IMG/VR virus record: IMGVR_UViG_3300044641_007115
Coordinates: 124,001-188,000 of that record
Strand: one strand, 5' to 3'
DNA from: a virus
DNA length: 64,000 nt
How positions within the stretch are numbered: position 1 is the stretch's first letter; every line of letters begins with the position of its first letter. The position numbers were made by a program, and so were the translations under genes. The notes under the pieces were generated by a model. The model worked only from the letters and a program-made list of their open reading frames with translations, did not search any database and had not been told where the DNA came from. Below are positions 5,003 to 49,908 of this stretch, one piece after another.

Positions 5003-5461
5003 ATGTCTGAAATGATCGTGTGGAAAAAGCCGTCGCTGGTCGTTGTTGGCGTCGCTATCGGCATTGTCATGTGCGGGCTATCTTTTAAGGTGGCCCGCGA
5101 CACCGCTCCGAAACCTGTGGTGGTCCCGGCGGTAGTTTCCAACCCGGCGAATCCACCGGCGACCGATCATCCATCGCCGGTGGATTTCCTGAAATGCATC
5201 GAAGGGAACACGACGCCGAAGAAGACATTTTTCGAAACAGTACTTCGCAATCGGTGTAATGTCGGGCTGGAAGCGTTCGTGGCAAAGTTCAAATTGTACG
5301 ATCTGACGGATTCGCGGGTCGGATGGTCGGAAGTTCCAATCGGCGAATTGGAACCCGGTGAAAAAGTCCGGTTCCGTTTGGATTACGACGTGCAAGAGAA
5401 TCCGAAGTTGACGGAAGGTGTGGGACGTGTCGCGCTGTATGACATGGTGCCGCAAAAATAG
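5003..5461 (+). CDS. Membrane-anchored hypothetical protein
   Basis: 152 residues: a single N-terminal membrane segment (about residues 11-28, LVVVGVAIGIVMCGLSF) that is an uncleaved anchor or signal peptide, a Pro/Val-rich linker, then a beta-rich domain of about 90 residues with two cysteines in the body (FLKC, RNRC). The globular part resembles periplasmic Ig-like domains by pattern only. Probably exposed to the periplasm. Confidence 0.55.
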   Translation: MSEMIVWKKPSLVVVGVAIGIVMCGLSFKVARDTAPKPVVVPAVVSNPANPPATDHPSPVDFLKCIEGNTTPKKTFFETVLRNRCNVGLEAFVAKFKLYDLTDSRVGWSEVPIGELEPGEKVRFRLDYDVQENPKLTEGVGRVALYDMVPQK

Positions 5462-5484
5462 TTCGAAAAAAGTTCAGAAAAGTG

Positions 5485-5514
5485 TTGACATCCGCTCAGC
5501 GGCATGTATAAATA
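5485..5514 (+). promoter_or_regulatory. Promoter ahead of the tRNA region
   Basis: TTGACA 5485-5490, 16-bp spacer, TATAAA 5507-5512. The -10 also forms TATAAATA (5507-5514), identical to the T4 late-promoter element, so it may serve early and late. It is the first promoter before the tRNA cluster. Confidence 0.65.
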
Positions 5515-5538
5515 GAATCAGAAGGACATCGCATTCAA

Positions 5539-5655
5539 ATGACGAACGTAGCCAATAAACGAAACGGAAACACCGCCCGGTGTGCCCGTGGCAATCGCTT
5601 CGTCACCTTCAATTGGTGCGGTAGCCGATTTAACGGGCGCGTCAAGCGCGGTTAA
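5539..5655 (+). CDS. Small basic peptide, possible
   Basis: 38 codons behind an AAGGAC site, 25 nt after the promoter. Very basic and Asn/Arg-rich (RNGNTARCARGNR), possibly nucleic-acid binding. The alternative is that this stretch is only the leader of the tRNA transcript. Confidence 0.35.
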   Translation: MTNVANKRNGNTARCARGNRFVTFNWCGSRFNGRVKRG

Positions 5656-5766
5656 TCCCCTCTCCCTGAAACAGTCCTGAACTGCAAAGCTGGAAGTAGC
5701 GATCCAGCAATGAGTGACACAGACAGGAACACTGGAGTAAGAAAGTTTCCCCTAAACAGTTTTCAA

Positions 5767-5857
5767 GGTAAGCCGACCGGTAACGGTTATCTGGTATAAC
5801 TTGGTTCGACTCCAAGACCACTTCGGTGGTTGACCCGTTCCAATCCAATTGCTTACC
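5767..5857 (+). ncRNA. Permuted RNA element A enclosing a tRNA fragment
   Basis: Ends are perfectly complementary: GGTAAGC (5767-5773) and GCTTACC (5851-5857). Inside the left end is the conserved CCGAYN...GGTTATC; inside the right end is CCAATT before GCTT, as in the five other copies (6932, 7286, 7393, 7530, 13392). Between them lies a good tRNA T-arm (5800-5816, loop TTCGACT) followed by a 5-bp stem ACCAC/GTGGT capped by TTCG (5822-5825). D- and anticodon arms are missing, so this cannot give a normal tRNA; it may be a remnant or a small circular RNA. Confidence 0.55.
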
Positions 5858-5864
5858 ACGCTAT

Positions 5865-5952
5865 GCACCCGTAGCCTAATGGATCAGGCAACACGCTACG
5901 AACGTGTGAGGCGAAAGTCTCTATGTGGGTTCGAGTCCCGCCGGGTGTTCCA
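5865..5952 (+). tRNA. tRNA-Arg(ACG) with long variable arm
   Basis: Acceptor GCACCCG/CGGGTGT, encoded CCA, D-arm AGCC...GGCA, anticodon stem ACACG/CGTGT with loop CTACGAA. The variable region is about 17 nt (GAGGCGAAAGTCTC hairpin), whereas bacterial tRNA-Arg is normally class I with 5 nt. Confidence 0.85.
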
Positions 5953-6041
5953 AACTATCGACGCTGATGCGTGAGAAACGCGCTACGGTGTTCTGTGATG
6001 CGGCTAAACAGGATGTGCATGTCGAAGTCGCCGCTGCAAAT

Positions 6042-6117
6042 GCGGGCATAGCTCAACTGGTCAGAGCACTGGCTTGCCAAGCCGGAGATACGGATTCGAA
6101 TTCCGTTGCCCGCTCCA
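6042..6117 (+). tRNA. tRNA-Gly(GCC)
   Basis: Acceptor GCGGGCA/TGCCCGC, anticodon stem CTGGC/GCCGG with loop TTGCCAA, T-loop TTCGAAT, encoded CCA. Canonical cloverleaf. Confidence 0.95.
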
Positions 6118-6122
6118 AACAT

Positions 6123-6200
6123 GGTCCTGTCGCCGGAACTGGTACTGGCACCTGTTTTACACACAGGCCGTTGTAGGTTCGATTCCTACCGGGACTACCA
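6123..6200 (+). tRNA. tRNA-Val(TAC)
   Basis: Acceptor GGTCCTG/CGGGACT with G-U pairs, anticodon stem CCTGT/ACAGG with loop TTTACAC, T-arm GTAGG TTCGATT CCTAC, encoded CCA. Confidence 0.93.
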
Positions 6201-6207
6201 AGATCGT

Positions 6208-6441
6208 ATGAAAGTGTTGATCGCACCTGACGGACAATTCTTCTTCGCGCAAGGCGTGGAGATGGATTACGCGGCTCAAGGTAACACTGTGGATGAGGCG
6301 AAGGCCAATTTCGCGGCGGGACTGGAAGCAACGAAGAAGCTCCACTTGGATCACTTCGGAGAAGTCAGGATCGATCCGGCACCGGAAGACGTGATTGCGG
6401 ATCTTCGGGCGACTGAAGGTCTGGTTGAAGTGGAGTTGTAA
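6208..6441 (+). CDS. Small HicB-like fold protein
   Basis: 77 residues. The pattern FFFAQGVEMDYAAQG then TVDEAKANFAAGLEAT resembles the partial RNase-H fold of HicB antitoxin-like proteins (aqG-x-T-x-eEA-x-x-N). No HicA partner lies beside it. The ATG at 6208 is chosen because everything upstream in frame is tRNA. It sits alone between tRNA genes. Confidence 0.55.
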   Translation: MKVLIAPDGQFFFAQGVEMDYAAQGNTVDEAKANFAAGLEATKKLHLDHFGEVRIDPAPEDVIADLRATEGLVEVEL

Positions 6442-6447
6442 TTTTAT

Positions 6448-6537
6448 TCCGGGATCGCCTAACTGGTAAGGCACCTGACTGTTACTCAGACGTGGCTTTA
6501 TGCCCATATGTAGGTTCGAATCCTACTCCCGGAGCCA
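6448..6537 (+). tRNA. tRNA-Asn(GTT) with long variable arm
   Basis: Acceptor TCCGGGA/TCCCGGA, D-arm GCC...GGC, anticodon stem CTGA/TCAG, loop CTGTTAC, then an unusually long variable region of about 19 nt (GTGGC...GCCCAT), T-loop TTCGAAT, discriminator G and encoded CCA. Long variable arms are not expected on tRNA-Asn. Confidence 0.8.
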
Positions 6538-6548
6538 AATTTTTCAAT

Positions 6549-6626
6549 GGGTCGGTAACTCAATAGGACTAGAGTAGCTGCCTCTTAAGCAGAAGGTTGT
6601 GGGTTCAAGTCCCACCCGGCCCACCA
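6549..6626 (+). tRNA. tRNA-Lys(CTT)
   Basis: Acceptor GGGTCGG/CCGGCCC, anticodon loop CTCTTAA, T-arm GTGGG TTCAAGT CCCAC, encoded CCA. A close paralogue lies at 6718. Confidence 0.9.
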
Positions 6627-6638
6627 AAGGAAAAGAAA

Positions 6639-6689
6639 ATGGAATTGACATTGTTCGAGAAACGAGTTGCCGGATCGGTCGCCGCCTAA
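6639..6689 (+). CDS. Possible 16-residue peptide
   Basis: A tiny frame (ATG GAA TTG...) directly after AAGGAAAAG between the two Lys tRNA genes. Length makes coding doubtful; it may be spacer. Confidence 0.2.
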   Translation: MELTLFEKRVAGSVAA

Positions 6690-6717
6690 CAAGCGGTTGG
6701 CCCGGTCCATTTCACAT

Positions 6718-6794
6718 GGGCCGGTAACTCAAATGGTCAGAGTAGCCGACTTTTAATCGGAAGGTTGTGGGTTCGAGTCCCACCCGGCCCACCA
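6718..6794 (+). tRNA. tRNA-Lys(TTT)
   Basis: Acceptor GGGCCGG/CCGGCCC, anticodon stem CCGA/TCGG with loop CTTTTAA, T-loop TTCGAGT, encoded CCA. Nearly the same body as the Lys(CTT) gene, so a duplication. Confidence 0.93.
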
Positions 6795-6880
6795 AGACCA
6801 AATCAAGTTCGCGCCGCCCGCGTAATCGGCAACGGCGCACAGATCATTGACAATTGAAGAGCCTGTTTAGGAACAAATGA

Positions 6881-6917
6881 CTCCCGGTCAGTCGTGGTAA
6901 GATTGACTCATTGGGAG
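6881..6917 (+). ncRNA. Two-stage hairpin before the permuted tRNA
   Basis: CTCCC (6881-6885)/GGGAG (6913-6917) encloses GTCAGTC/GATTGAC with loop GTGGTAA. No T-run follows, so not a terminator. It lies 15 nt upstream of element B and may be a processing site. Confidence 0.4.
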
Positions 6918-6931
6918 AGATCAAAGGAAGT

Positions 6932-7061
6932 GGCAAGCCGATAGGTGATGGTTATCCCTCTGCAAAAGGGGCAATATGGGTTCGAATCCCATCGTGTTCT
7001 TCGGAGCATGTCGTCTAATGGTAGGACGCCTAAAATCTCCGTCGCCGATACCTTGCTTGCC
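6932..7061 (+). tRNA. Circularly permuted tRNA-Cys(GCA), element B
   Basis: Order is reversed: GGCAAGC (6932-6938), conserved CCGATA...GGTTATC (to 6956), tRNA 3' half (6957-6999: anticodon loop CTGCAAA, T-arm ATGGG TTCGAAT CCCAT, acceptor CGTGTTC), a TTCG cap (7000-7003), tRNA 5' half (7004-7030: acceptor GAGCATG, D-arm GTC...GAC, then GCC), and the element's other half ending GCTTGCC (7055-7061), the exact complement of the start. Joined 7030 to 6957, the halves give a regular cloverleaf of about 70 nt with anticodon stem CCCCT/AGGGG. CCA is not encoded. A conventional tRNA-Cys lies at 7642. Confidence 0.75.
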
Positions 7062-7079
7062 GCTTCCTTTCAAAAAGAA

Positions 7080-7280
7080 ATGACCAAGTTCCGAATACTC
7101 ACTCCGTCCGGCGTTCAGGCCGAAGGGGAATGGGAAACGCTGGCGGAGATTCCGGCCCGGCTTCCTGATCGCTTCATGCATTACTTCGACACTGAAGATG
7201 CGGATGTGGTGGTCATAGGAGAAAATGGAAAAGAATCCCGGTTAGGAGTTTTGGGACTGGTTCGTGGAGTGATAAGATAG
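7080..7280 (+). CDS. Hypothetical protein between permuted elements
   Basis: 66 residues, acidic (FDTEDADVVVIGENG), no family recognised. It lies exactly between element B (ends 7061) and element C (starts 7286), with only a weak purine-rich ribosome site. The upstream in-frame extension is tRNA sequence, so the ATG at 7080 is used. Confidence 0.5.
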   Translation: MTKFRILTPSGVQAEGEWETLAEIPARLPDRFMHYFDTEDADVVVIGENGKESRLGVLGLVRGVIR

Positions 7281-7285
7281 TTTCA

Positions 7286-7361
7286 GTGACAGCCGACAGG
7301 TGGATGGTTATCTCAACTGTTAATTGACAAAAACCCGTTCGCCGTTCAACTTGCTGTTCAC
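7286..7361 (+). ncRNA. Permuted RNA element C with anticodon-like hairpin
   Basis: GTGACAGC (7286-7293) pairs with GCTGTTCAC (7353-7361, one bulge). Next comes the conserved CCGACA...GGTTATC (to 7312), a stem-loop TCAA CTGTTAA TTGA (7313-7327) identical in form to an Asn(GTT) anticodon arm, then the other half with CCGTTCGCC and GTTCAACTT before GCTG. The inner helix CCGTTCGCC/GGTGGATGG is 9 bp. No T-arm or acceptor is enclosed. A degenerate or minimal member of the family. Confidence 0.5.
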
Positions 7362-7364
7362 TAT

Positions 7365-7496
7365 GGATCGGTAGCTCAGTGGCAGAGCAACGTAACAAAT
7401 GGTCTTCACCGCCCATTTTGCTGGCAACAGCCGTTAGGTGAGGGTTATCGCCTATTAAGCCGTAGGTCGTAGGTTCGAATCCTACCCGGTCCACCA
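7365..7496 (+). tRNA. Intron-containing tRNA, predicted anticodon ATT
   Basis: Acceptor GGATCGG/CCGGTCC, D-arm GCTC AGTGGCA GAGC, T-arm GTAGG TTCGAAT CCTAC and encoded CCA are canonical, but 57 extra nt (7393-7449) interrupt the 5' strand of the anticodon stem. Removing them restores a perfect stem ACGGC/GCCGT with loop CTATTAA and a 75-nt tRNA. The insert starts TAAC, ends GTTATC and contains GCTG(GCAA)CAGC. The anticodon read as ATT (Asn codon AAT) depends on the exact splice site. Confidence 0.75.
7393..7449 (+). ncRNA. 57-nt tRNA insert, linear copy D
   Basis: UAAC/GUUA outer helix, 7-bp CUUCACC/GGUGAGG helix, conserved internal loop (GCCCAUUUU opposite CGUUA), and GCUG/CAGC capped by the GNRA loop GCAA. 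Same architecture as the 51-nt insert at 7530. Confidence 0.65.
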
Positions 7497-7502
7497 AATC
7501 TT

Positions 7503-7628
7503 CGGGAAGTAGCTCAGTGGCAGAGCACGTAACGGTCTTCGTCGCCAAATTGCTGGAGACAGCCGACTGATGAAGGTTATCGCATCATAAGCGCGGTGTC
7601 GTTGGTTCGAGTCCAACCTTCCCGACCA
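7503..7628 (+). tRNA. Intron-containing tRNA, anticodon CAT
   Basis: Acceptor CGGGAAG/CTTCCCG, D-arm GCTC AGTGGCA GAGC, T-arm GTTGG TTCGAGT CCAAC, encoded CCA. A 51-nt insert (7530-7580) splits the anticodon stem; without it the stem is CGCGC/GCGCG with loop ATCATAA, giving CAT (Met, or Ile if C34 were modified). A conventional CAT tRNA follows at 7899. Confidence 0.75.
7530..7580 (+). ncRNA. 51-nt tRNA insert, linear copy E
   Basis: UAAC/GUUA helix, CUUCGUC/GAUGAAG helix (7 bp), internal loop GCCAAAUU opposite CGACU, GCUG/CAGC capped by GAGA (GNRA). One base at each junction is ambiguous. Confidence 0.65.
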
Positions 7629-7641
7629 AATTCCTCAACAT

Positions 7642-7717
7642 GCACCGGAAGCTAAAGTGGATAAGCGGTGGTCTGCAAAACCATCAATAGCGGGTTCGAG
7701 TCCCGCCCGGTGCTCCA
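7642..7717 (+). tRNA. tRNA-Cys(GCA)
   Basis: Acceptor GCACCGG/CCGGTGC, anticodon stem TGGT/ACCA with loop CTGCAAA, T-arm GCGGG TTCGAGT CCCGC, encoded TCCA. Confidence 0.93.
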
Positions 7718-7740
7718 AAGTTCTCCGACTAAACAGTGGC

Positions 7741-7887
7741 ATGAGTCATCAAACAATCAGCTTCATCAAGAGTGCGGTACGAATCGCGGGTTACGCTTTG
7801 ATGTATACGATCCCCGGCGGGTTCTGGCCCGCGACTGTGCTGATCGCATCTGAAGTGATCGGCATCATCGAAGAGATCGGCCACTAG
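7741..7887 (+). CDS. Small hydrophobic protein
   Basis: 48 residues dominated by a hydrophobic, glycine-containing stretch (AGYALMYTIPGGFWPATVLIA), so a probable small inner-membrane protein. No clear ribosome site. Holin-like size, but nothing specific supports that role. Confidence 0.45.
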   Translation: MSHQTISFIKSAVRIAGYALMYTIPGGFWPATVLIASEVIGIIEEIGH

Positions 7888-7898
7888 TCGAACAAGTT

Positions 7899-7974
7899 TG
7901 CGGAGTAGAGCAGTGGTCAGCTTGTCAGTCTCATAAACTGAAGGTCACGGGTTCGAATCCCGTCTCCGCAACCA
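7899..7974 (+). tRNA. tRNA-Met(CAT)
   Basis: Acceptor TGCGGAG/CTCCGCA, anticodon stem TCAGT/ACTGA with loop CTCATAA, T-loop TTCGAAT, encoded CCA. The three G-C pairs of initiator tRNAs are absent, so elongator type (or Ile2). Confidence 0.9.
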
Positions 7975-7978
7975 ATTT

Positions 7979-8055
7979 TGTCCCGTAGCGCAGTTGGTCA
8001 GCGCGCTTCCCCGACACGGAAGAGGTCGTCGGTTCGAATCCGACCGGGACAACCA
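7979..8055 (+). tRNA. tRNA-Val(GAC) with C33
   Basis: Acceptor TGTCCCG/CGGGACA, anticodon stem CTTCC/GGAAG, loop CCGACAC. Position 33 is C rather than the near-universal U. T-loop TTCGAAT, encoded CCA. Confidence 0.85.
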
Positions 8056-8060
8056 ATTAC

Positions 8061-8137
8061 GCGGGATTCGTCTACGTTGCTTAAGACGACAGCCTTCCAA
8101 GCTGTAGAAACCGGATGGTCACCGGTATCCCGCTCCA
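8061..8137 (+). tRNA. Atypical tRNA-Gly(TCC)
   Basis: Acceptor GCGGGAT/ATCCCGC, anticodon stem ACAGC/GCTGT with loop CTTCCAA, encoded TCCA. The D-loop (TACGTTGCTTAA) lacks the GG pair and the T-loop is ATGGTCA instead of TTCRANY, although the T-stem ACCGG/CCGGT is perfect. The normal D-loop/T-loop contact cannot form. Confidence 0.75.
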
Positions 8138-8143
8138 AAGTTT

Positions 8144-8231
8144 GCAGCGCATCTGTAGTTCAGTTGGTAGATCCTTGGGTGGTGAGCTTAGCTCATCTGT
8201 GCGCCGGTTCGAGTCCGGCCAGATCGCTGCA
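8144..8231 (+). tRNA. Degenerate tRNA, possibly His(GTG)
   Basis: A T-arm (GCCGG TTCGAGT CCGGC) and a D-region (GTTCAGTTGGTAGATC) are clear. The acceptor pairs as ATCTG/CAGAT, extended by GCAGCG/CGCTGC around a bulged C. The anticodon stem TTGGG/CTTAG has three G-U pairs and loop TGGTGAG lacks U33. No CCA. Possibly a pseudo-tRNA. Confidence 0.45.
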
Positions 8232-8235
8232 ATAT

Positions 8236-8309
8236 GCTCCGGTAGCTTAACGTAAAGCGACAGATTCCAAACCTGTTAGATGTGGGTTCAAATCCTACCC
8301 GGAGTGCCA
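8236..8309 (+). tRNA. tRNA, probably Trp(CCA)-like
   Basis: Acceptor GCTCCGG/CCGGAGT, D-arm GCTT AACGTA AAGC, T-arm GTGGG TTCAAAT CCTAC, encoded GCCA. The anticodon stem ACAGA/CCTGT has one A-C mismatch and loop TTCCAAA reads CCA. A 9-nt-loop alternative would change the identity. Confidence 0.65.
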
Positions 8310-8316
8310 ATCTCAT

Positions 8317-8390
8317 GGGGGTGTAGCTTAATGGTAAAGCCTCGGTCTCCAAAACCGATCATGGGGGTTCGATTCCCTCCACCCCTGCCA
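8317..8390 (+). tRNA. tRNA-Trp(CCA)
   Basis: Acceptor GGGGGTG/CACCCCT, D-arm GCTT AATGGTA AAGC, anticodon stem TCGGT/ACCGA with loop CTCCAAA, T-loop TTCGATT, encoded GCCA. Confidence 0.92.
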
Positions 8391-8474
8391 AGTTTTCCAC
8401 GGGACCGCCGCCGGGCACGGCTAGGGTCACCAGACAGTCCAGTCCAAAGAGGGTGAGGGTGGTCACCGTGGCGC

Positions 8475-13391: not shown

Positions 13392-13528
13392 GGGTCAGCC
13401 GTAGGATCAAGGTTATCGCCCCAAACCGCCATGCGCGGGTTCGATTCCCGTCATCATCCTTTGGTGGGTGGTGTTGACCAGTGGTAGGTCAGCGGATCAG
13501 ATTCCTTGGCCGTTCAATTTGCTGACCC
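13392..13528 (+). tRNA. Circularly permuted tRNA, element F, anticodon probably CCA
   Basis: GGGTCAGC (13392-13399) is the exact complement of GCTGACCC (13521-13528). Inside are CCGTAG...GGTTATC (to 13417), a tRNA 3' half with T-arm GCGGG TTCGATT CCCGT and acceptor CATCATCC, a 6-nt loop, then the 5' half: acceptor GGGTGGTG (8 pairs), D-arm GACC AGTGGTA GGTC, AGCG, and the element's CCTTGG...CAATTT. Rejoining gives a cloverleaf with loop CCCCAAA (CCA, Trp, C33), or U33 with a shifted junction. No CCA end. An extended -10 (TGTGGTATGAT, to 13383) starts transcription about at the element. Confidence 0.7.
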
Positions 13529-48452: not shown

Positions 48453-49874
48453 CTACTTCTTTCCAGCGGCATCGCGAATCATGCTCTGTGCCAACAGCGT
48501 GGCATCCTTCTTCGAGAAAGAGGGAGTCTCCAGAACCTTGTCGAGAATGCGGCCTTTGATCTTGCCGATCAGCGGTCCCTTTGCGCCCAAGGCGGCGATT
48601 TCGTTGCCGTCCAGAACACTGGTGGTGTTCAGGATGGATTCGATGTCCCAATCCTTGATGCGTTGGCGAATCCGATCAATCTGATTCGGCATGTTGGCAT
48701 GTTCCGCGTGGCTGATGTTGTCGGCATGCATCAGACTCAACAGCGGGTCCAGTTTGTCGGCTACACGGAAGATCAGCTTCCGAAGACTCTTGTCCTTCAG
48801 CGTTGCCAGATCATCACCGGCGAACTTCATGTCCATGTGGTGAAAAACGATCTTGCGGATCTTCTCCGTGTCATCGTTCGAATACTTCAGCCGTTTCATG
48901 ACTTCCACGGCAATGTCAGCACCGACATTAGCGTGACCAAGGAAACGTACCTTACCACCATCGTCGGTGCGGGTCGCGGCCTTGCCGATGTCATGGAACA
49001 ACGCGGCCAGCCGGACAGTCAAATCCGGCGGGGCATTGTCCAGCACATCAAGTGTGTGGTCGAATGCGTCATGCTTGTGATAGGCGTTCTGAGTGACGCC
49101 GGACAGCGATTGCAATTCCGGCATGAACTCTTTCAGCAACCCGGTGATCTTGAACAGCCGGATAGCGCGCGACGGCTTCTTCAGCACAAGGATCTTGTTC
49201 AGTTCGTCTTGAATGCGTTCCTTGCTGATCGTCTGCAACCGCCGGGCATTGACCTTGATGGCTTTGATGAGAGCCAATGGCAATTCGAAGTCGTACTTGA
49301 TCGCGAAACGGACGGCGCGCAACATCCGCAACGGATCTTCGCTGAAGATGTATGTCGCGTCGCTGGTCGTCTGGATAGTCTTTCGCTTCAGATCGGCCAA
49401 ACCGCGTCCGGTCAAATCCCGGAGTTCGGAGTTCGACAGGCGCATGAAAAGCGAATTGATCGTGAAGTCCCGGCGGAACGCATCATCTTCGAGCGTACCA
49501 GCCGACACCACCGGCTTGCGGCTGTTCGCGTCGTACTTCTCTTTCCGGGGCGCGACGAACTCCACGTCAAAGCCGCTTTTCAGAGTCAGCTTGGCCGTGC
49601 CGAAGCGCGGGAAGATGACCGGGTTGGAATCCGGTCGATAGACGCCAAGTGCCTTCGCCAAGAACGTGGCGCATTCGATGCCGCCTTCGAGTCCGTGGTT
49701 GTCCACCACCAAATCCAAGTCCTTGACTGGTAAACCCATTTGCATGTCGCGCACCGCGCCGCCAACAAGGTACACGTCTTGCTCATACTTCGAACCGATG
49801 AGCGCATTGCGCACCGCGTTCAAGGCGTCTTCGGCCTTTGCGCTTTCAAATAGGAATTGTCTGAACGACATCAT
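48453..49874 (-). CDS. cca: CCA-adding enzyme / poly(A) polymerase family, with HD domain
   Basis: 473 residues from ATG 49874. Nucleotidyltransferase head: DVYLVGGAVRDMQMG, DLDLVV (metal Asp pair), AFRRDFTINSLF, DPLRMLRAVRFA; then an HD domain (HDAFDHTLDVLD, LAALFHDIGK). It adds or repairs the 3' CCA of tRNAs, needed because some tRNAs here lack encoded CCA. The N-terminus MMSFRQFLFESAKA has the capsid-targeting-like pattern with a cut after FLFE. ATG lies 5 nt after TATACT, so leaderless. Confidence 0.88.
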   Translation of the reverse strand: MMSFRQFLFESAKAEDALNAVRNALIGSKYEQDVYLVGGAVRDMQMGLPVKDLDLVVDNHGLEGGIECATFLAKALGVYRPDSNPVIFPRFGTAKLTLKSGFDVEFVAPRKEKYDANSRKPVVSAGTLEDDAFRRDFTINSLFMRLSNSELRDLTGRGLADLKRKTIQTTSDATYIFSEDPLRMLRAVRFAIKYDFELPLALIKAIKVNARRLQTISKERIQDELNKILVLKKPSRAIRLFKITGLLKEFMPELQSLSGVTQNAYHKHDAFDHTLDVLDNAPPDLTVRLAALFHDIGKAATRTDDGGKVRFLGHANVGADIAVEVMKRLKYSNDDTEKIRKIVFHHMDMKFAGDDLATLKDKSLRKLIFRVADKLDPLLSLMHADNISHAEHANMPNQIDRIRQRIKDWDIESILNTTSVLDGNEIAALGAKGPLIGKIKGRILDKVLETPSFSKKDATLLAQSMIRDAAGKK

Positions 49875-49878
49875 ATTG

Positions 49879-49908
49879 AGTATACCACAGGACATCTATG
49901 TCAGACAA
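49879..49908 (-). promoter_or_regulatory. Sigma70-type promoter of cca, leaderless
   Basis: Minus strand TTGTCT (49903-49908), 18-bp spacer, extended -10 TGTGGTATACT (-10 at 49879-49884). Confidence 0.7.

Follow-up and report, generated by a model that had tools for sequence, protein, structure and literature searches.

A permuted phage element enclosing a tRNA upper half: probable member of an apparently undescribed RNA family at tRNA position 28/29

Introduction

Group I introns are built around a conserved P3-P8 core and occupy about 200 nt or more, and group II introns have a six-domain structure that includes domain V. To our knowledge, bacterial and phage tRNAs are generally held to carry group I introns only. 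Here we describe element A, located in a 64,000-nt stretch of phage DNA (the window, bases 124001-188000 of the 224-kb record IMGVR_UViG_3300044641_007115), and a family of elements about 50 nt long found between tRNA positions 28 and 29. Element A is probably a permuted member of this 28/29 family, whose contiguous form would be spliced out of tRNAs and whose permuted form, opened at the loop of helix P1, would release the enclosed RNA as a circle. The architecture, covariation and distribution of the family, the recurrence of truncated cargoes and the conservation of element A are read directly from the sequence.

Permuted tRNA genes were previously known from algae and archaea. In red and green algae and in archaea they carry bulge-helix-bulge (BHB) motifs cut by the tRNA splicing endonuclease (PMC3978253). 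Like these genes, the permuted 28/29 elements place the 3' half ahead of the 5' half, in some cases encode CCA, and have an acceptor loop of variable length (1-74 bp in algae and archaea, 2-38 in the 28/29 elements); the circular intermediate of the algal and archaeal genes has only a predicted counterpart here (PMC3978253). Unlike them, the 28/29 elements comprise a conserved P1/P2 element of about 50 nt at position 28/29, are found in bacteria and phages, and in many cases contain only part of a tRNA. Natural circularly permuted group II introns, which are large six-domain ribozymes, resemble the 28/29 elements in having a split, inside-out intron, with a circle formed from the enclosed RNA being only predicted for the latter, and are related to them in neither sequence nor size (PMC8637638). 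Finally, inserts of 22-49 nt in Nostoc and Gloeocapsa tRNAs were classed as group I and assigned to the anticodon loop, their authors considering a possible unknown intron element (2017; PMC5733544). Two of these three inserts share CTTGxCT, AAGxC and GAAGAAT with the contiguous form, and because of these shared motifs they are very probably a previous sighting of it; structure, permuted forms, mini forms and phage copies were not reported there. No description of the 28/29 family or of its permuted or mini forms was found in the literature, in a search without preprints and most subscription journals.

Results

Architecture of the 28/29 Family

The contiguous form is an insert of about 50 nt (46-57 nt) between tRNA positions 28 and 29, consisting, from the 5' end, of (U)AAAACAU, the 5' strand of helix P2, a CC-rich joint, a P1 hairpin flanked by UUGC and GCCG, a second joint, the 3' strand of P2 and GGUUAU. 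Relatives were gathered by pattern scans of IMG/VR and GTDB genomes, which gave 4.17 Mb of loci (numbered with the prefix L). GCCG and GGUUAUC are invariant across the family, in part by construction because both motifs were built into the search patterns, of which the pairing tests are independent. In these loci, 148 distinct elements were permuted and had an outer helix of 6 bp or more, as compared with a single one in block-shuffled sequence, and 160 were contiguous, 121 of them with a downstream T-loop, as compared with none in shuffled sequence.

Two helices, P1 and P2, are paired in 97% of the cells of 18 aligned inserts. The covariation score of this alignment is 0.748, as compared with 0.275 for shuffled and 0.10-0.18 for slid partners, and two-sided changes number 55 versus 16. 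Inserts trimmed to P2 were used for this test, since MAFFT alignment with the leader bases misaligned P2. In a set chosen by P1 and the motif alone, without reference to P2, 42 of 106 nonredundant elements have a P2 of at least 8 bp, versus about 3 when the partners are swapped.

The family is unmatched in Rfam 15: searches of the loci returned tRNA models and trivial matches only. Covariance models of the known small self-cleaving ribozymes had no match at the gathering score in any locus, and none of note at E<=5 at 5400-8420. The 28/29 elements thus constitute an uncatalogued and apparently undescribed RNA family. A looser pattern, CAGCCGA..GGTTATC, was discarded, its matches in viral contigs being mostly chance, and low-scoring mini candidates that look like chance (e.g., L258, L259, L265, L286, L287, and L266) were excluded from reliance.

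Element A and Related Elements of the Phage

Element A has the features of the family: a P1 of 7 bp, a P2 of 5 bp, GCCG, GGUUAUC and UUGC. Its first part reads, as DNA, GGTAAGC-CGACCGGT-AACGG-TTATC-TGGTATAA-[CTTGG TTCGACT CCAAG], and the second, following the T-arm, [ACCAC TTCG GTGGT]-TGAC-CCGTT-CCAATCCAA-TT-GCTTACC. Eight bases separate UUAUC (to 5791) from the T-arm (from 5800), which is backed by its sequence pattern and by analogous elements. When A is folded alone, the UUCG-capped stem is present in the centroid but not in the minimum free energy structure. This acceptor-like stem has 5 bp, so that A lacks the 7-bp acceptor of the permuted tRNAs, which is present in element B (Table 1).

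No D-arm, anticodon arm or CCA is present inside A (5767-5857). The coordinates and the perfect 7-bp pairing of the ends given by an earlier, sequence-only reading of the window thus hold, together with its description of the interior as a T-arm and a UUCG-capped stem and nothing else, which cannot be a tRNA. It expected a product of 40-50 nt, in agreement with a cargo of about 44 nt if A is excised as in the family. The permuted ends are supported as a functional unit in their own right, and the Asn-like anticodon hairpin that the reading noticed in element C is present.

At least ten elements of the 28/29 type are encoded in the 224-kb record. Those of the window are listed in Table 1, and additional copies are located at approximately 38.0, 38.6, 209.4, and 209.6 kb of the record. 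On its own, element B adopts a permuted cloverleaf fold (-47.1 kcal/mol, z -2.9). Two tRNAs with anticodon stems broken by inserts of 51-57 nt (7365-7496 and 7503-7628) were both missed by ARAGORN. Their inserts, D and E, hold both halves of the permuted element in the opposite order, linked by a short hairpin; permuted elements therefore correspond to the insert opened at the hairpin loop. A-rich linkers are present in elements C and H.

Table 1. Elements of the 28/29 type in the window and the parts of element A.
Feature	Position	Strand	Remarks
Element A, permuted 28/29 element with T-arm/UUCG-stem cargo	5767..5857	+	
A: P1 5' strand GGUAAGC, outer helix	5767..5773	+	7/7 pairing with 5851-5857
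A: element 3' half CG-ACCGGU, P2 AACGG (5782-5786), UUAUC (5787-5791; family-invariant)	5774..5791	+	
A: T-arm CUUGG-UUCGACU-CCAAG	5800..5816	+	
A: shortened acceptor-like stem ACCAC-UUCG-GUGGU	5817..5830	+	centroid fold
A: element 5' half, P2 CCGUU (5835-5839), CCAAUCCAA, UU	5835..5850	+	
A: P1 3' strand GCUUACC	5851..5857	+	
Element B, permuted whole tRNA-Cys(GCA), acceptor stem UUCG-closed, outer helix 12 bp	6927..7066	+	
Element C, mini form, cargo UCAA-CUGUUAA-UUGA (Asn-type anticodon hairpin)	7285..7362	+	
Insert D, contiguous, in tRNA 7365-7496 (anticodon AUU once joined)	7393..7449	+	E 2.2e-9; identical copy in L147
Insert E, contiguous, in tRNA 7503-7628 (CAU anticodon), between positions 28/29	7530..7580	+	E 1.5e-11; identical copy in L147
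Element F, permuted tRNA-like gene, acceptor loop CUUUGGUG, outer helix 8 bp	13392..13528	+	

Cargoes of the Permuted Elements

A T-arm is present in 69 permuted elements, and the acceptor is a perfect 7-bp helix in 39 of these, whose acceptor strands are joined by a loop of 3-38 nt. Some acceptor loops contain NCCA together with an AT-rich spacer (L316, L346, and L379), a feature shared with algal permuted tRNAs (PMC3978253), and others are tight (AUU, UUCG, GCAA), leaving no space for CCA. Partial cargoes are of several kinds. Besides A, upper halves consisting of a T-arm and a capped acceptor, with no D- or anticodon arm, are present at L357:4798, L405:10498, and L441:12314; a D-arm is added to the T-arm and acceptor at L429:168 and L385:10302, and four arms without the acceptor are found at L010:3401. 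The elements of L357 (z -5.2), L405 and L429 fold as described.

Other permuted elements, the mini forms, enclose a small hairpin only. Hairpins with 7-nt loops are present in 43 of 72 nonredundant minis, versus 18 expected, and the combination Y32-U33-R37 occurs in 15 of these loops versus 3.8 expected, a count reached in 0 of 5000 shuffles. The anticodons in loops with U33 correspond to Lys (4), Ser (4), Leu (4), Asn (3), Arg (3), and Cys (3), and the 7-nt-loop hairpins of the minis are anticodon arms of mixed identity.

Splice Junction

Junctions were located by removing the insert and seeking the joint that restores a 5-bp anticodon stem. The full stem is restored in 60 of 98 joined tRNAs. 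Unique solutions join positions 28 and 29 in 23 of 44 cases, exon 2 starting at the C of GUUAU/C, and this site is included in 15 of the 16 ambiguous solutions; the 5' end of the insert is (U)AAAA. A minority of tRNAs, including that with insert D, need a junction shift of 1-3 bases. The 28/29 junction is thus read from the restored anticodon stems. A fixed 3' splice site after UUAUC was ruled out, as most solutions put the site before C.

Conservation of Element A

Two relatives have copies of element A with identities of 97.8 and 100% to it; the flanks are 90.7 and 95-96% identical. Both changes are located in the T-loop (L140), a relative in which element B has a compensatory change in its acceptor. 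In the orthologous copies of element H (L010 versus L233) about one third of the cargo bases are changed and the loop is altered, while the 4-bp stem and the 7-nt loop are retained.

Discussion

Proposed Mechanism

Excision, circle formation and any role are what we infer from these sequences. The contiguous insert would most likely be removed and the exons joined. In the simplest reading, the element would be a splicing unit that acts at the meeting point of P2 and cargo, with ...GGUUAU on one side and AAAACAU... on the other. With P1 closed, the element would be an intron; with the P1 loop open and P1 forming the outer helix of a transcript, this reaction would link both ends of the enclosed RNA, which would be freed as a circle. 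A CCA-bearing acceptor loop would allow a circle to be opened into a true tRNA, and tetraloop-closed and truncated circles may persist as small stable RNAs. Element A holds a tRNA upper half, composed of the T-arm and the shortened UUCG-closed acceptor stem, and is kept in that form.

Several observations weigh against this scheme. Element A has no A-rich, AAAACAU-like 5' splice region such as most family members possess, its P2 being preceded by UGAC, and that helix is only 5 bp long; because the A-rich 5' splice sequence is missing, the excision of A itself is uncertain and is the weakest step. The inferred 3' site is not constant: it follows C in D, precedes C in E and lies ahead of AUC in one element of L260. 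Imperfections such as the lack of U33 or 8-nt loops occur in several permuted tRNAs. The informative relatives for A number two, and in one relative, L248, B has lost 7 nt of its core while A is intact.

The enzyme that could join the exons was sought among known RNA ligases. RtcB, Rnl1 and Rnl2 have no match in the 224-kb record of this phage. Among 38 bacterial genomes carrying the pattern, RtcB is present in 31 and absent in 7, the latter including the isolates Lihuaxuella (L. thermophila DSM 46701, with a permuted element) and Enemella (Enemella by pattern match only); the 22 other phage records contain RtcB in 2 and Rnl1 in 7 cases. None of the three is therefore a consistent candidate for a phage-encoded ligase, and the absence of RtcB from 7 of 38 genomes and 20 of 22 phage records indicates that it is not strictly required. 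With no clear ligase partner, a self-splicing RNA or an unknown host enzyme remains. In Anabaena, TrcR controls the trn operon together with rtcB (PMC10272220), which favors protein help in this organism; the co-regulation of an RtcB repair and ligation system with a tRNA array would be in keeping with exon joining assisted by a protein. We tentatively consider that the 28/29 element may be self-splicing, the smallest natural intron ribozyme, and that phages opened its P1 loop for circles, including those of the A and C types, acting on host tRNA enzymes or nucleases; this is possible rather than probable.

Alternative Explanations

The element could also remain unspliced, being a structured RNA (a self-cleaving ribozyme, a nuclease site or a spacer) that separates arrayed tRNAs, or an intact hairpin RNA. 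Minis are indeed often found directly between tRNAs, as between two tRNA-Val in L308, one in a 490-kb phage contig appears by eye to be flanked by promoter-like and terminator-like sequences, and in several UUAUC is wholly paired in one long hairpin. This explanation is nevertheless unlikely, since the 121 contiguous copies break intact tRNAs at one position and their removal restores the anticodon stem, the permuted copies restore acceptor stems, and cutting alone would leave the insert-bearing tRNAs as halves. Far less plausible still is an intron of group I or group II in permuted form, or one of the archaeal BHB type. Permuted introns and permuted tRNAs of such kinds exist (PMC8637638; PMC3978253), and the short Nostoc and Gloeocapsa inserts bore the group I label (PMC5733544), but 46-57 nt is far below the size of group I and II introns, neither of which was matched in Rfam. 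P2 meets the anticodon stem as a side helix rather than in a 3-4-3 bulge-helix-bulge arrangement; inspection of the aligned inserts and junctions revealed unpaired UUAU and AAAACAU and no central 4-bp helix between two 3-nt bulges.

The sequence-only reading offered two explanations for the reduced interiors, decaying copies and small circular RNAs with another use, such as decoys for anticodon nucleases. In the former case, arms would have been deleted from permuted tRNA genes in A and C, the ends persisting around a useless interior. The complete permuted tRNA-Cys of element B lies close by, the damage to its core in L248 means that decay happens in the family, the cargo of H has diverged by about one third, and mixed anticodon types are expected of random remnants. 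On the other side, minis in unrelated phages have a perfect P1 and often a P2 of 8-9 bp, and hold 7-nt loops with anticodon-loop signatures; the stem and loop size of H survive the change of its loop, upper-half elements recur (L357, L405, and L441), and A is better conserved (98-100%) than its flanks (91-96%). The recurrence of minis with these signatures and the conservation of A argue against simple decay, which we regard as somewhat unlikely for A and C and as not the best reading of A. As for decoys, A displays no anticodon loop and therefore cannot bait an anticodon nuclease, and the proposal fits C, whose CUGUUAA loop agrees with the anticodon-hairpin idea and which could be such a decoy. 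A broader version, in which circles serve in counter-defence, those of the C type baiting anticodon nucleases (PrrC-, RloC- or PARIS-like) and those of the A type nucleases or enzymes directed at the upper half, appears improbable. It is consistent with the real anticodon-loop features of the minis, with tetraloop-closed circles that could not be charged and with the presence of such elements in large phages, but no one target anticodon dominates, minis are also found in bacterial genomes (L473, L468, and L496), and A carries no anticodon.

Possible Roles and Implications

With excision of the permuted elements as the preferred reading, the likeliest role of A, proposed with low confidence, would be that of a stable mimic of the tRNA upper half occupying an enzyme that reads this half. 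RNase P, tRNase Z, the CCA-adding enzyme, EF-Tu and a T-arm modifier are candidates. The phage has its own candidate CCA-adding enzyme at 48453-49895 of the window (minus strand), a poly(A)-polymerase/CCA-adding-enzyme-like protein with an HD domain. Anticodon-arm circles would mimic the lower half of tRNA. With the truncated cargoes, the proposal of circles that mimic tRNA can be put to a direct test.

The 28/29 element combines one fixed tRNA site, occurrence in many bacterial groups and two natural layouts, of an intron and of a predicted circle-making form, which would provide a natural design for very small RNA circles. If this is true, the tRNAs of many phages and cyanobacteria are incompletely counted, the element being invisible to ARAGORN and Rfam. 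It also raises a chemical question, that of an RNA of about 50 nt capable of self-splicing versus an unknown bacterial tRNA splicing enzyme.

Distribution and Other Observations

The contiguous form, usually located in tRNA arrays, is found in Nostoc, Calothrix, Crocosphaera, Symploca, Sorangium, Armatimonadetes, Anaerolineae, and others, as well as in tRNA arrays of unrelated phages. Of 116 genomes sampled from the class of a Nostoc, 16 contained the family according to a covariance model, as did 3 of the 120 from the class of an Anaerolineaceae metagenome-assembled genome (MAG), so the distribution of the family is patchy. BLASTN searches of the inserts against named phages and plasmids gave tRNA-body or chance matches only; by that test no named isolate phage is known as a carrier.

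In an Anaerolineaceae MAG (L473:6900-7640), which has no RtcB match, four minis with differing cargoes are located among tRNAs, some of which carry contiguous inserts. An unrelated AT-rich phage contains three consecutive permuted tRNA-like genes and one mini (L260:2030-2510 and 2806-2885), and arrays of successive permuted elements are present at L405:10415-10911 and L429:168-812. ARAGORN shows few or no tRNAs in several permuted arrays, whose tRNAs are therefore under-counted.

Within the phage record itself, a contiguous element at 38.0 kb (L003, minus strand, ~19045) replaces the entire anticodon arm of a tRNA, as it does in L134, L139, and L144; the acceptor, D- and T-arms of this tRNA are intact and changes in the T-stem of the relatives are compensated. 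The permuted element at 209.4 kb (L010:3395-3517) comprises D-, anticodon (Leu CAA), variable and T-arms with no acceptor and is conserved in L233. A possible further degenerate element (AGCCGAAGATTGTTGGTTACC) is located away from the known tRNAs of the phage (L009:4143-4206). The phage also carries a transfer-messenger RNA gene on the minus strand (L004:6855-7219), with the predicted tag ANSNVLAMAA.
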